Assembly: GCA_020720665.1 (NCBI GenBank)
Contig: DYOF01000012.1
Location: forward strand, 1-37,296
From: Acetofilamentum sp.
GTDB lineage: Bacteria; Bacteroidota; Bacteroidia; Bacteroidales; JAADGE01
Direction of reading: 5' to 3'
Length of the DNA: 37,296 nucleotides
The position numbers were made by a program, and so were the translations under genes. The notes under the pieces were generated by a model, which saw only the letters and a program-made list of their open reading frames with translations, was not told the DNA's origin and made no database searches. Shown in pieces: positions 7,975 to 37,296 of the stretch (position 1 is its first letter; the number at the start of each line of letters is the position of its first letter).

Positions 7975-8010
7975 AAAACTGTCATGATTAATTTACTGTC
8001 AGTTTTTATA
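7975..8010 (+). terminator. Probable terminator after accD
   Basis: AAAACTG (7975-7981) can pair with CAGTTTT (8000-8006) and is followed by a T/A-rich stretch. The stem is short with an 18-base loop, so this is a weak to moderate intrinsic terminator. Confidence 0.5.
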
Positions 8011-8089
8011 TTTAAAAACAGACTAAGATATATCATACAAGATAAACTATTTTTCACACAAAGGAATATGGTTTCAAGTATTTATATAT

Positions 8090-8097
8090 TACTTTTG
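8090..8097 (+). promoter_or_regulatory. -7 promoter element for the symporter leader
   Basis: TACTTTTG matches TAnnTTTG exactly. Transcription would start a few bases downstream, near 8103, just before the repeated leader at 8110. This puts the whole leader in the 5' untranslated RNA. The -33 element is not clear. Confidence 0.6.
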
Positions 8098-8109
8098 TTC
8101 AAAGAAAGT

Positions 8110-8200
8110 GTTCCTATGTGCAGAGAAAAATATGCATTATAAATAAGTATTAGAAATCAATTTGCAGATTGTTAATTAATTGCAAAATTATAAACACATG
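8110..8200 (+). promoter_or_regulatory. Repeated 91-nt leader, copy A (upstream ORF plus hairpin)
   Basis: Matches 37206-37296 (opposite strand) at 76 of 91 positions without gaps. Identical blocks are GTTCCTATGTGCAG (8110-8123), GCATTATAAATAAGTAT (8134-8150) and TCAATTTG (8157-8164). The element ends on the ATG of the symporter. It holds a possible 8-codon ORF, a hairpin TTTGCA/TGCAAA (8161-8166 with 8181-8186), and TATGTG (8115-8120), which can pair with CACATG (8195-8200) over the start codon. The reading as a regulatory 5' leader is inference; the repeat itself is seen directly. It matches no RNA family I can name. Confidence 0.75.
8116..8142 (+). CDS. Possible leader peptide MCREKYAL (8 codons)
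   Basis: ATG TGC AGA GAA AAA TAT GCA TTA TAA. The equivalent ORF in copy B reads MCRKEQAL. Met-Cys-Arg at the start and Ala-Leu-stop at the end are the same in both, with a synonymous AGA/AGG change for Arg, while the three middle codons all differ with no indel. The stop lies 55 bases before the main ATG in both copies. With the -7 element at 8090 the ATG would be about a dozen bases from the transcript 5' end. Translation is not shown. Confidence 0.45.
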   Translation: MCREKYAL

Positions 8201-10039
8201 AAAAAAGTTTTATTCAGCCTGTTATTTTTAGTTAGTTTTTTATATGCTAAAAGTCAAGACATTCAATTACAAGTTAAACTATCAAACGAATCAAAAAAGA
8301 TTAATGACGGAACAGCGGTTTTAATTGTTACAGGCGGAACAGAACCTTATAAATATTATTGGTCAGACCAAAAAGTTGATTTAAAATCACTTGTTGCCGA
8401 TAAATTATCCGAAGGAACCGAATATACCGTTGAAGTTACTGATATAACCGGAAAAAGTGCAAAAACTTCATTTATAGTTCCTGCAGAATCAACAGATGAA
8501 AAAATAAATTCGTTTTTTACCCCGATTGTAAATGCAATAGCAGCCGTTTTAATGTTTGATGTATTTGATGCCCTGCATTTATATGACCCTGTTTTAAAAA
8601 ATGATTCCGGCGAAACTATAAAATATCCTAACGGCGACCCTCAAAAAATGAAAATACCTTTTGTTGTTGTATGGTTAGTTATTGGTGCGGTATTTTTTAC
8701 AATTCGAATGAATTTTATAAATTTCAGAGGATTTAAACATGCTATAAATTTAATCAGAGGTAGATATGATAATCCTGAACACAAAGGTGAAGTAACTCAT
8801 TTTCAAGCTTTAACAACTGCATTATCAGCAACGGTAGGTTTAGGTAATATTGCCGGAGTTGCCATAGCTATTACAATAGGCGGACCCGGCGCCACATTAT
8901 GGATGATTATTGCCGGTTTACTCGGTATGGCTTCCAAATTTACAGAAGTTACTTTGGGCGTTAAGTATAGAAATATAGATGAAGACGGCCAAGTATCCGG
9001 CGGACCGATGTATTACTTGAGTAAGGCTTTGAAAAAGAAAAATTTAGGAGGACTCGGAAAAATATTAGCAGTAATTTTTGCCGTATTAGTTATAGGCGGT
9101 TCTATAGGCGGCGGAAATATGTTTCAGGCAAATCAAGCCTTCTCACAGTTATCTTTAAAATTAGCTCCTTTTATTTCAGGTGTTGAAGGATACGGTGCAT
9201 ATTTCGGAATATTAATTGCAATTTTTGTAGGAATTGTTGTTATCGGCGGTATTAAAAGTATTGCAAATGTTACTGAAAAAATTGTTCCGTTTATGGCAAT
9301 CCTATATGTTGCAGCGGCTTTAATCATCATCGGAATAAATTTTCATGAAACCGGTCATGCTATTCGTTTAATTTTTGAAGGTGCTTTTGCAGCCGATGCA
9401 ATGAAAGGAGGTTTAATAGGTGTTCTGATTGTAGGATTTCAAAGAGCAGCTTTTTCTAATGAAGCCGGAGTCGGTTCAGCTTCTATTGCACATTCGGCAG
9501 TTAAAACAAACAGACCTGTAAGTGAAGGATTTGTTGCACTTTTAGAACCCTTTATTGATACGGTTGTGATTTGTACAATGACTGCCTTAGTTATTATCTT
9601 TACAGGATTTTATGATCCTTCCGTTGCCGGAGGCTTAGCCGGTGTTGAATTAACATCTAAAGCTTTTGACAGTGTTTTCCCTTGGTTTTCTTGGATATTA
9701 TTATTAGCTGTTTTATTATTTGCTTTTTCAACTATGATTTCCTGGTCATATTATGGTTTAAACGGTTTCCGATTTCTATTCGAAAAATTGTTTAAATATA
9801 AAAAGCTAAGTTCTAATTTATATTTAAGTTCTCTTGTTTATTATATTATTTTCTTAGTATTTATTGTTGTCGGCTCAGCTTCCAGTTTAGGAGCTGTTGT
9901 TGATTTTTCAGACTTTATGATACTTAGTATGGCATTCCCTAACATTTTGGGACTTATTATTTTAGCCCCCGAAATTAAACAAGATTTAAAAGAATATATC
10001 AGAGATTTGAAATCAGGTGTAATAAAACGGTTTAAATAA
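8198..10039 (+). CDS. Sodium/alanine-type symporter (AGCS family) with N-terminal SprB-like domain
   Basis: Inner-membrane carrier, probably sodium:alanine or glycine symport. The 613-residue product begins with a signal peptide (MKKVLFSLLFLVSFLYAKSQ), followed by an extracytoplasmic domain of about 85 residues with GGTEPYKYYWSD (46-57), the signature of SprB/PKD-like repeats of Bacteroidota surface proteins. The AGCS core follows: INFRGFKHAINLIRG, THFQALTTALSATVGLGNIAG, GGPGATLWM, VSGGPMYYL, FSNEAGVGSASIAHSA, and about ten hydrophobic segments. An insert of about 30 residues (DPVLKNDSGETIKYPNGD) lies between the first and second hydrophobic segments. I chose the ATG at 8198, not a TTG 18 bases upstream inside the hairpin, because it begins the signal peptide and because the leader repeat ends exactly there. 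The substrate is inferred from the family. Confidence 0.9.
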   Translation: MKKVLFSLLFLVSFLYAKSQDIQLQVKLSNESKKINDGTAVLIVTGGTEPYKYYWSDQKVDLKSLVADKLSEGTEYTVEVTDITGKSAKTSFIVPAESTDEKINSFFTPIVNAIAAVLMFDVFDALHLYDPVLKNDSGETIKYPNGDPQKMKIPFVVVWLVIGAVFFTIRMNFINFRGFKHAINLIRGRYDNPEHKGEVTHFQALTTALSATVGLGNIAGVAIAITIGGPGATLWMIIAGLLGMASKFTEVTLGVKYRNIDEDGQVSGGPMYYLSKALKKKNLGGLGKILAVIFAVLVIGGSIGGGNMFQANQAFSQLSLKLAPFISGVEGYGAYFGILIAIFVGIVVIGGIKSIANVTEKIVPFMAILYVAAALIIIGINFHETGHAIRLIFEGAFAADAMKGGLIGVLIVGFQRAAFSNEAGVGSASIAHSAVKTNRPVSEGFVALLEPFIDTVVICTMTALVIIFTGFYDPSVAGGLAGVELTSKAFDSVFPWFSWILLLAVLLFAFSTMISWSYYGLNGFRFLFEKLFKYKKLSSNLYLSSLVYYIIFLVFIVVGSASSLGAVVDFSDFMILSMAFPNILGLIILAPEIKQDLKEYIRDLKSGVIKRFK

Positions 10040-27430: not shown

Positions 27431-28327
27431 TCAGAGCAGTTTTTTTAAAGTTTCTGCAAATAAATCAGCAGCAGGAGGATGAAATCTGAACCATAGTTCA
27501 GGTTCTGTTAATTCTAATTCGCTGACAGCAGGTTTGTCTAAATTGTCAAAAAATACATCAACTCGTGCGTAAATCGGGCGAGGATTGCACGATTTTACAA
27601 CTTGTTCAGCAAATTTGATTTCTTCATTTGTTGGTGTATAATTATGAACTGTACCGCCAAAGTCATCTTGTACTCTGAAATCACCTTCTTTTGCTTTTTT
27701 TAAAACAGCATGTGTAAATTTACCGTTAATTATAATAAATGCAATTTCACCTTTAGTTGTAATTTGATATTGAAATTCTTGAAGCATTAAATCTTCGTCA
27801 TATATTAATTTCTTAAAAATTACTTCATAATCAGAAATGTTTGCTTCGTTTATTTTATACGTATGCCTTCCTGCACCTGAAACTACAGGCTTTAGTACAG
27901 CTTCTTTCCATTCTGTTTTTTGAAAAATAGTTTTTAAACTTGAAGCTGAATTTTTTGAAATAAAGAGAGTCGGAGGAATATTTATACCCGAATTTTTTAA
28001 TTCAAGCAAGTAGTGTTTATCAATATTTTTATAGACAATTTCCGGTGAATTTATGAAACGCGTTTTTTTCTCTGTTTTTTTTAACCATTCCGAAAATTCG
28101 TTAAATCGATGAAAATAATCCCAAATTGCTCTGAAAACAACTATTTTAGTTTCAGAAAAATCAAAATCGGGATTATCCCACCATGTTCTGCCGGCTTTTA
28201 AACCTTTTCTTTTCAGTGCTTCTGACAATAAATTATCTTCTTGTAAAACTTGTTTTGCATACCAATCAGGATTTTTTGGCTTGTAAAAATCTTTTTTTGT
28301 AAGTAAAACAACATCAAATAATTTCAC
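27431..28327 (-). CDS. ATP-grasp domain protein, substrate unknown
   Basis: 298 residues. ATP-grasp ligase pattern: an N-terminal alpha/beta domain, then a subdomain with VLKPVVSGAGRHTYKI (ATP-binding lysine and glycine-rich loop), ISDYEVIFKKLIYDEDLMLQEF, KGEIAFIIINGKFTHAVLKK, and a metal-binding end ARVDVFFDNLDKPAVSELEL. It resembles the RimK/glutathione-synthetase-like group that joins a carboxylate to an amine; the exact substrate cannot be read. The GTG start at 28327 (MKLFDVVLLT) is preferred over a TTG 18 bases upstream because the Rossmann strand begins there. It is the last gene of the lptF operon, 40 bases after ribBA. Its upstream end (TTTTAGACACGTG) resembles the end of the repeated leader. 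Confidence 0.8.
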   Translation of the reverse strand: MKLFDVVLLTKKDFYKPKNPDWYAKQVLQEDNLLSEALKRKGLKAGRTWWDNPDFDFSETKIVVFRAIWDYFHRFNEFSEWLKKTEKKTRFINSPEIVYKNIDKHYLLELKNSGINIPPTLFISKNSASSLKTIFQKTEWKEAVLKPVVSGAGRHTYKINEANISDYEVIFKKLIYDEDLMLQEFQYQITTKGEIAFIIINGKFTHAVLKKAKEGDFRVQDDFGGTVHNYTPTNEEIKFAEQVVKSCNPRPIYARVDVFFDNLDKPAVSELELTEPELWFRFHPPAADLFAETLKKLL

Positions 28328-28367
28328 GTGTCTAAAATTATGCAATTAATTTCATAGAGATTTAATA

Positions 28368-36626: not shown

Positions 36627-37208
36627 TTATTTTTCTTTTCGTTTTTTTATTTCGTCTCTTATTTTTGAAGCGGTTTCATAATCTTCTTTTTCAACTGCTT
36701 CATCCATAATTTTTTGTAGCTCTTTTACAGAATAATCTTCAAAATTATCGCTTTTTTGTTTTTTTTCAGAATTTTCGGTATCAGATTCTCCTATATCTTC
36801 ATTAAATAATATTCCTGCTTTTTCTATTATTTCTTCCGTTACAAAAATTGGCGCATTAAAACGTAAGGCAATAGAAATTGCATCAGAAGTTCTTGAGTCA
36901 ATTTTTATTTTTGCTAATTCTCGTTTGCAAATTATTTCAGAGTAGAAAATTCCCTCTTCTAATTTTACAATATTAACTTCTGTAACTGTTATATGAAATG
37001 AGTTTGCCATACTGACAAATAAATCGTGAGTTAAAGGTCTGAATGGTTTTAAACCTTCCAATTGTATTGCTATGGATTGAGCTTCAGAAGTTCCTATAAT
37101 AACCGGTAAACGTCTGTTCCCGCTTTCTTCTTCCAAAATCAATGCATAAGCTCCGTGACGAGTTTGGCTGTATGATAATCCGGCAATTTTTAAACGAATT
37201 TTTTTCAT
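36627..37208 (-). CDS. Bifunctional nuclease (DUF151) with C-terminal UVR motif
   Basis: 193 residues. Residues 1 to about 130 form the BFN/DUF151 domain (ALILEEESGNRRLPVIIGTSEAQSIA, RPLTHDLFVSMAN, DSRTSDAISIALRFNAPIFV), described in plants and Thermotoga as a nuclease or structural fold. After an acidic linker (about 140-155), the last 35 residues are a UvrB/UvrC-type coiled-coil motif (KELQKIMDEAVEKEDYETAS). This combination is common in Bacteroidota; a DNA-repair or stress role is suggested but not proven. Its ATG ends copy B of the repeated leader. The MFS carrier follows 3 bases downstream. Confidence 0.88.
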   Translation of the reverse strand: MKKIRLKIAGLSYSQTRHGAYALILEEESGNRRLPVIIGTSEAQSIAIQLEGLKPFRPLTHDLFVSMANSFHITVTEVNIVKLEEGIFYSEIICKRELAKIKIDSRTSDAISIALRFNAPIFVTEEIIEKAGILFNEDIGESDTENSEKKQKSDNFEDYSVKELQKIMDEAVEKEDYETASKIRDEIKKRKEK

Positions 37209-37296
37209 GTGTCTAAAAATTTGTAAATAATTAATAATCTACAAATTGAATGCTTATACTTATTTATAATGCTTGTTCTTTCCTGCACATAGGAAC
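37206..37296 (-). promoter_or_regulatory. Repeated 91-nt leader, copy B (upstream ORF plus hairpin)
   Basis: Minus-strand copy of the element at 8110-8200, ungapped, 76 of 91 identical; the window ends at its first base. It ends on the ATG of the nuclease/UVR gene. The hairpin arms TTTGTA and TACAAA (minus strand, 37245-37240 with 37225-37220) replace TTTGCA/TGCAAA of copy A: a compensated C-G to T-A change. The promoter lies outside the window. Confidence 0.75.
37264..37290 (-). CDS. Possible leader peptide MCRKEQAL (8 codons)
   Basis: Minus strand ATG TGC AGG AAA GAA CAA GCA TTA TAA. Same length and same end residues as the ORF at 8116-8142, with the stop 55 bases before the main start in both. 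Translation is unproven. Confidence 0.45.
   Translation of the reverse strand: MCRKEQAL

Follow-up and report, generated by a model that had tools for sequence, protein, structure and literature searches.

Copies of the repeat in the window

The window, that is, the whole stretch of 37,296 nt analysed here, is an entire contig (C48, DYOF01000012.1) of an Acetofilamentum sp. assembly (GCA_020720665.1; 2.60 Mb, 237 contigs, 99% complete), and it carries copies of a short repeat that runs up to the start codons of genes and that we interpret as a probable mobile element. On the plus strand, a nearly full-length unit of the repeat, with a decayed left end and an intact right end, was located at 8037-8202 (nhmmer, 8039-8202, E 2e-31; R1, a sequence-only model built from 45 units, 8037-8203, E 1.2e-28). 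Its right-end ATGAA (8198-8202) holds the start codon of a sodium:alanine symporter (AGCS) gene (8198-10039, Pfam PF01235). On the minus strand, the 3' module of a second unit (37203-37296; R1, E 1.4e-21), truncated by the contig end, stands in front of a bifunctional nuclease/UVR gene (36627-37208; Pfam PF02577 and PF02151). A probable third remnant, internally deleted and decayed, was recognized at 28323-28355 (minus strand) from a weak nhmmer match (E 0.46) and its sequence. It consists of ATGAA and the last ~28 nt of a unit and ends in GTGAA, the start codon now being GTG, and it is followed by an ATP-grasp gene (27431-28327, minus strand; Pfam PF02955 on 27431-28333).

An earlier, sequence-only reading of this DNA had paired the 91 nt in front of the symporter gene (8110-8200) with those in front of the nuclease/UVR gene, and the match was confirmed (76/91 identical, ungapped). 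The best of 200 shuffles of the 91-mer reached 53/91 anywhere in the window and the next-best real match was 46/91, so the repeat is not a product of chance. A repeat search of the window extended the arms to 100 nt at 84% identity. The 91-nt boundaries had to be revised: the minus-strand copy starts at 37296 at the end of the contig and not at an end of the element, and the repeat is a dispersed element of ~171 bp, of which the 91 bases cover no more than the 3' half. Nor does the match stop exactly at the start codon. The sequence common to the units runs slightly past the ATG to the end of ATGAA (8202), and beyond this position both downstream genes merely have a similar third codon region (ATGAAAAAA). 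A TACTTTTG box at 8090-8097, just upstream of the 91-nt stretch, is missing from the unit consensus and is therefore unlikely to be a shared promoter; no common internal promoter was evident in that consensus. An Rfam scan of the window returned only tRNAs at the gathering cut-off and nothing near the cut-off in 8000-8320, so that the window copies match no Rfam family. In the symporter gene itself (8198-10039), ~190 residues precede the PF01235 match, with a signal-like stretch at the start as judged by eye.

Copy number and distribution of the element

Matches to R1 numbered at least 154 in the source genome, 94 in G003, 67 in G004, 14 in G008, 7 in G005, 5 in G013 and 3 in G001, the counts of the rich genomes being probably low since 150 candidates were scored per genome; the remaining 7 of the 14 genomes of the genus gave no match. 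A 174-nt query found 55 matches in the source genome. An exact 41-nt core occurred eight times there, and this genome was the only positive one of 60 (0/59 relatives). A left-half pattern gave a single match in G012. In a draw of 393 genomes from the order that did not include the unit-rich G003 and G004, this pattern was present in 3, each belonging to the same genus. In a named collection, from which the source genome was possibly excluded, the core pattern recovered 33 stretches from uncultured Chlorobi/Chlorobiota metagenome-assembled genomes and from one such genome named Acetofilamentum; a looser core found no viral contig. Contig ends of the source genome often fall inside units or arrays (13 of the 125 units fetched), so the element is probably a cause of assembly breaks, and copy counts are likely too low. 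In G008, the leader of a gene that looks transaldolase-like by eye (L117:389-430) matches no more of the unit than its final ~45 nt; such solo right-end matches were also seen elsewhere and are either remnants or native look-alikes.

Units begin the reading frames of unrelated genes

We examined 125 units of the source genome, taken from 76 stretches around matches, the window and L103, with genes called as crude open reading frames (ORFs). Seventy-eight of them preceded an ORF of at least 100 amino acids (aa) that starts at the unit's own ATG. The others stood before an ORF of 50-99 aa (2), an ORF below 50 aa (3) or another unit in head-to-tail tandem (19), lay at contig ends (13), had no ATG (6), were cut (3) or reached the end of the stretch (1). 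Among 51 units of G003 and G004, 32 preceded ORFs of at least 100 aa and one an ORF of 50-99 aa, two had no ATG and two were cut, and all 15 units fetched from the remaining genomes preceded ORFs of at least 100 aa.

The 78 downstream proteins of the source genome fell into 77 clusters, which rules out a gene family behind the repeat. Ten scanned downstream proteins (eight from the source genome, two from G003) comprised a short-chain dehydrogenase, OmpH, HypD, cobalamin adenosyltransferase, Ham1, phosphofructokinase, saccharopine dehydrogenase, RlmN, GcvT and an L-PSP/RidA-like protein, and had no common theme. The expectation of many copies, most of them terminating at start codons of unrelated genes, was thus borne out. 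In tandem arrays (L047, L042, L052), units of one array have a common 3' module, private changes included, and different 5' modules, a pattern that suggests local copying or recombination between units.

The element lies behind ATGAA and is absent from some orthologous sites

In the source genome, 72 of 90 units with an intact left end directly follow ATGAA, and most of the other 18 left flanks are one base off this motif. The base after the right-hand ATGAA is the gene's own (A, T, C or G), whereas 65 of 66 left-hand ATGAA motifs are followed by A; therefore the unit is A-CACCC...CASATGAA placed behind ATGAA. From the junctions, five duplicated bases are indistinguishable from a five-base target.

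The flanks of 14 units were joined and queried in G003 and G004, which are 91-96% identical at shared loci. Clean empty sites in the other species were found and aligned for 3 of the 14 (L217/L254, L186/L255 and L202/L258). At these three, the empty site reads leader-ATGAA-gene, and the filled site reads leader-ATGAA, then 171-172 bp ending in ATGAA, then the gene. Seven flank pairs looked filled in both species (118-167 bp between flank matches, one clearly shortened), one (L220/L256) retained a short remnant and three (L208, L210 and L219) had no clear ortholog. The empty orthologous sites together with the flanking ATGAA therefore indicate a mobile element whose insertion point lies just 3' of the ATGAA at start codons. 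We consider it highly probable that the units form a family of mobile, start-codon-directed non-coding elements, a judgement that leaves aside the kind of transposase.

Start codons are preferred over other ATGAA sites

Site preference was assessed in 447 kb of source-genome stretches with crude ORF calls; these stretches were chosen because they bear units, so the share of occupied starts is not genome-wide. Free ATGAA motifs numbered 2003 within genes, 82 at starts and 255 in intergenic DNA. The same 447 kb held 82 scorable units, of which 76 begin ORFs of at least 100 aa and 6 begin shorter ORFs. Another 16 units lead straight into a second one, and 8 no longer have ATGAA. Copies within genes, or placed without regard to starts, would have marked a plain dispersed repeat; they were looked for and none was found among the 82, although for 6 of these the downstream ORF is short. 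The odds ratio of start to intergenic sites was 39-118, the value varying with the number of short-ORF units (all 6, or 2) that were counted as intergenic. Twenty-four of 78 units are at least 90% similar to a unit elsewhere, and these stand at ORFs (18), in tandem (5) or at a contig end (1).

Target recognition may underlie the bias, or else retention, since later removal of a unit would take away a working start. Loss of neutral copies elsewhere, combined with retention at working starts, could yield part of it.

Two predicted helices join internal segments to both ends of the unit

The unit measures ~171 bp, with ~122-178 bp among the subfamily members compared, and its right end is CACATGAA or CAGATGAA, i.e., CASATGAA. 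An ORF through the unit was rejected on a mean of at least three stops per unit in each frame. What recurs across subfamilies is AACRCCC at the left end, a CATGAYTA-like motif and GGYGTT-CC-TATSTG in the interior, and CASATGAA at the right end. The left end (AACACCC) and the internal GGYGTT can form helix P1, conserved in most subfamilies, and the adjacent TATSTG and the right-end CASATG can form helix P2, giving two adjacent stem-loops that reach nearly to the element ends. In the window, the P2 arms of the symporter unit are TATGTG (8115-8120) and CACATG (8195-8200), the latter including the start codon; their assignment rests on the sequence and on P2 covariation across units.

Two alignments were used. 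A1 held 44 of 47 full units and the window copy, with two identical copies and L042_4176 omitted, and A3 held 36 of 37 hand-picked units, with L324 omitted for its degenerate guide region. In the 36 units, 81.6% of P1 cells and 98.1% of P2 cells were paired. The covariation score was 0.125, compared with 0.061 in shuffles (0/500 as high), with compensatory changes in both helices; sliding the helix partners abolished the signal, and kinship among units inflates the covariation counts. In family A of the source genome (n = 45), a variable P2 pair is G-C in 20 units, C-G in 16 and other in 9, and this pair with its linked neighbouring column is the strongest long-range association touching the right end. 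A wider guide survey relied on a TTC anchor, so that the first P1 pairs are set in advance and some guides are misplaced; there, 110 of 138 rows had a right end, and at the variable P2 position 93 of these carry G-C or C-G and one more A-T. RNAalifold on A1 predicted P2 unprompted, and DNA folding of L319 yielded both helices.

At least four subfamilies were distinguished, differing between species. Subfamily B (L319, L321 and L322) combines AACGCCC with GGGCGTT and CAGATG with TATCTG, L320 has a hairpin insert that disrupts P1, and in subfamily C a further hairpin can separate the internal guide halves (L327-L329 and L333), which is also where the L320 insert sits.

Candidate transposases in carrier genomes

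The source genome has a single match to the Y1 transposase domain (Y1_Tnp), and it is fused to dapF. Relatives of this Y1 domain occur in G008 (84%), G009, G002, G012 and G013, some only as fragments; the fusion was rejected as a general mover because no relative was found in G003 or G004. At L103, the leader of the dapF-Y1 gene is itself a unit with a deletion, but units stand before many genes. A diaminopimelate epimerase with a C-terminal Y1 domain (486 aa) resembling RAYT, the transposase associated with repetitive extragenic palindromes (REPs), is encoded in two species of the genus (L103:370-1830, plus strand; L134 from 649, plus strand), the transposase part being 84% identical. Classing Y1 loci by motif was given up, since a readable motif set was present in 15 of 30 loci and no pattern followed the element.

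Half-profiles run over the fetched stretches as a search for composite autonomous copies gave only lone or degenerate half units. A left-half model applied to eight genomes revealed new subfamilies and no autonomous copy among the 22 matches inspected, the rest being mostly weak. The IS110 transposase domain PF02371 had no match in the element-rich G000, G003 and G004 and matches in 4 of the 14 genus genomes (drafts), and an IS110 origin was rejected on this ground.

Proposed mechanism and alternatives

We propose that a non-autonomous element inserts immediately 3' of the ATGAA of a start codon, in the orientation of the gene. Its own right end (CACATGAA or CAGATGAA) would re-form ATGAA ahead of the remaining gene, leaving the protein unchanged; the native leader would be displaced and the element would become the new leader. 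Head-to-tail arrays would arise when a resident unit's own ATGAA received another insertion. The moving form may be a single strand with two stem-loops, mobilised in trans by a single-strand HUH/Y1 transposase of the insertion sequence (IS) IS200/IS605 or REP type, a step for which, taken alone, we see about as much chance of being right as of being wrong. Single-strand transposition is nevertheless the favoured route: it would fit a target on one side only, ends without inverted repeats and an internal segment that pairs with the ends, as well as the rules described for IS200/IS605 and REP systems (PMC6006769). A more complete version of the proposal has the recognition machinery reading translation starts as such (ATGAA plus initiation-region context), with harmless spread through housekeeping genes, swapping of leaders and a two-stem-loop strand held at both ends by pairing with an internal splint; this version we offer tentatively, as possible rather than probable.

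Several results weigh against start-codon-directed, single-strand transposition. Fourteen of the 51 G003/G004 units precede an ORF below 50 aa; seven of these lead into a further or decayed unit, and the other seven (e.g., L208, L189 and L219) have no evident gene in frame. Two of five covariation measures (pairs with double change and further pair types) were not above shuffles, RNAalifold on A1 did not give P1, and the family A consensus, whether folded as DNA or as RNA, did not outperform shuffles. Among three subfamily members folded as DNA, L330 forms neither helix and L327, folded without its left end, pairs an internal AACACCC in place of P1. P1 is lost in the G005 subfamily, L331 and L320, and its outermost pair is unpaired in 23 of the 36 units. 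No autonomous copy or dedicated transposase was found in searches for Y1 and IS110, which did not extend to recombinases, reverse transcriptases and TnpB/IscB nucleases. Y1_Tnp is present in 11 of the 14 genus genomes without tracking the element; none of the 30 scanned Y1 loci, out of 49 in these draft assemblies, has unit ends flanking the gene on both sides; and the dapF-fused Y1/RAYT domain lacks a relative in the element-rich G003 and G004.

A tyrosine or serine recombinase that integrates a circular form, crossing over at an ATGAA core common to circle and target, would account for ATGAA at both ends and for the exact tandem junctions, as expected of site-specific recombination, and P1 and P2 together could bridge a circle junction. 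We consider this route unlikely: the consensus shows no evident inverted recombinase-binding arms around ATGAA, and no gene-containing composite unit was seen in the fetched stretches.

The sequence-only reading had taken the repeat for a modular cis-regulatory leader. Its modular anatomy stands, and its primarily regulatory nature is not supported, as empty sites, flanking ATGAA, tandem units and species-specific subfamilies characterise a mobile element. An attenuator or riboswitch-like 5' leader of a large regulon, spread by duplication and retained for regulation with P2 opening and closing the start codon, is suggested by copies at the start codons of many genes and by the covariation of a helix that includes the start codon. 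It is rendered distinctly unlikely by the empty sites in a sister species, by flanking ATGAA and tandem units, by at least four subfamilies that differ between species, and by downstream genes unrelated in sequence, those scanned being without a common theme.

RNA-mediated spread by a resident reverse transcriptase, in the manner of a bacterial retroposon resembling short interspersed elements, appears very improbable: a non-coding unit in one orientation, a short flanking duplication and copies without a 5' part are what it predicts, but among 16 5'-short copies listed only L167 clearly has ATGAA at the break, and L187, also 5'-short, proved to be a later deletion when set against the orthologous G003 copy. 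An RNA-guided IS110/IS1111-type element, with GGYGTT-TATSTG as a bridge-RNA-like guide to its own ends, is the least probable of these readings, for although both ends find their complement in the internal segment, which varies in step with them, both guide halves pair with the same strand and PF02371 shows the distribution given above.

At filled sites, the native ATG remains upstream and opens a short upstream ORF that ends inside the unit, in all cases within 57 codons, with medians of 15 codons (62 source-genome units), 8 (16 units of G003/G004) and 4 (11 units of other genomes). The gene would then presumably be initiated at the AT-rich right end of the unit. P2, if formed in the mRNA, would hide the start codon, and on this model an effect on expression is plausible. 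Any regulatory role would be secondary; control of translation is possible, judging from the covariation of the helix that contains the start codon.

Comparison with known systems

Literature searches in open-licence papers found no start-codon-targeted element of such habit. Many small mobile elements persist between genes; the present one sits on gene starts, including those of housekeeping genes (phosphofructokinase, RlmN, GcvT and RidA-like), and appears to survive by bringing its own leader and re-forming the start. If this is true, it would be a new safe-landing strategy for mobile DNA, and the exchange of 5' leaders throughout a genome would amount to an experiment that nature has repeated many times. 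How an insertion system comes to occupy start codons, and how translation in these bacteria initiates from an imported leader, become testable questions.

Miniature inverted-repeat transposable elements (MITEs) are short, non-coding, non-autonomous, high-copy elements with terminal inverted repeats and a short repeated target. The present element is likewise short, non-coding, non-autonomous and high-copy, with a short repeated target at its flanks; unlike MITEs, it has no terminal inverted repeats (consensus, by eye), and its start-codon target rebuilds the reading frame. HEARO/IsrB elements insert at ATGA. For one IsrB, a preference for an NTGA target-adjacent motif is described (PMC9581776). 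The two have in common a structured non-coding element beside an ATGA-type motif, whereas the ~171-bp unit has no gene, its window copies have no Rfam match and it is biased towards start codons.

REP and REPIN sequences, as described in PMC6006769, have a GTAG-type foot on a hairpin of 21-65 nt and often form inverted doublets, and RAYT subclass 2.6 of Bacteroidetes is noted there for 'atypical secondary structures'. Our element resembles the REP/REPIN-RAYT systems in being small, high-copy, hairpin-forming and non-coding, with species-specific families in one genus and a RAYT-like gene in some carriers. It differs in having no GTAG-type foot, in not forming inverted doublets (consensus), in lying at start codons and not in extragenic space, and in having no cognate RAYT across all carriers, as the source-genome RAYT domain is without a relative in G003 and G004.

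In insertion habit, the element resembles non-autonomous derivatives of IS200/IS605, which also lack terminal inverted repeats, have a fixed short target at the left flank, stem-loops at the ends and one orientation, pair internal bases with the right end and leave precise empty sites. In our element, the fixed left target and precise insertion are seen in ATGAA at 72 of 90 left flanks and in the three empty sites; terminal inverted repeats are absent by eye, and hairpins lie near the ends, with mixed folding results. No Y1-encoding partner with the same ends was found in 30 of 49 Y1 loci, a result from drafts that is not decisive. In IS200/IS605, a tetranucleotide guide just 5' of each hairpin foot pairs with the cleavage sites, according to PMC6006769; the internal segments of the element pair with both ends in a geometry that differs from the guides so described. 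Unlike IS200/IS605, the element has a target that equals its right end (ATGAA), helices that nearly reach its ends and a strong bias towards start codons.
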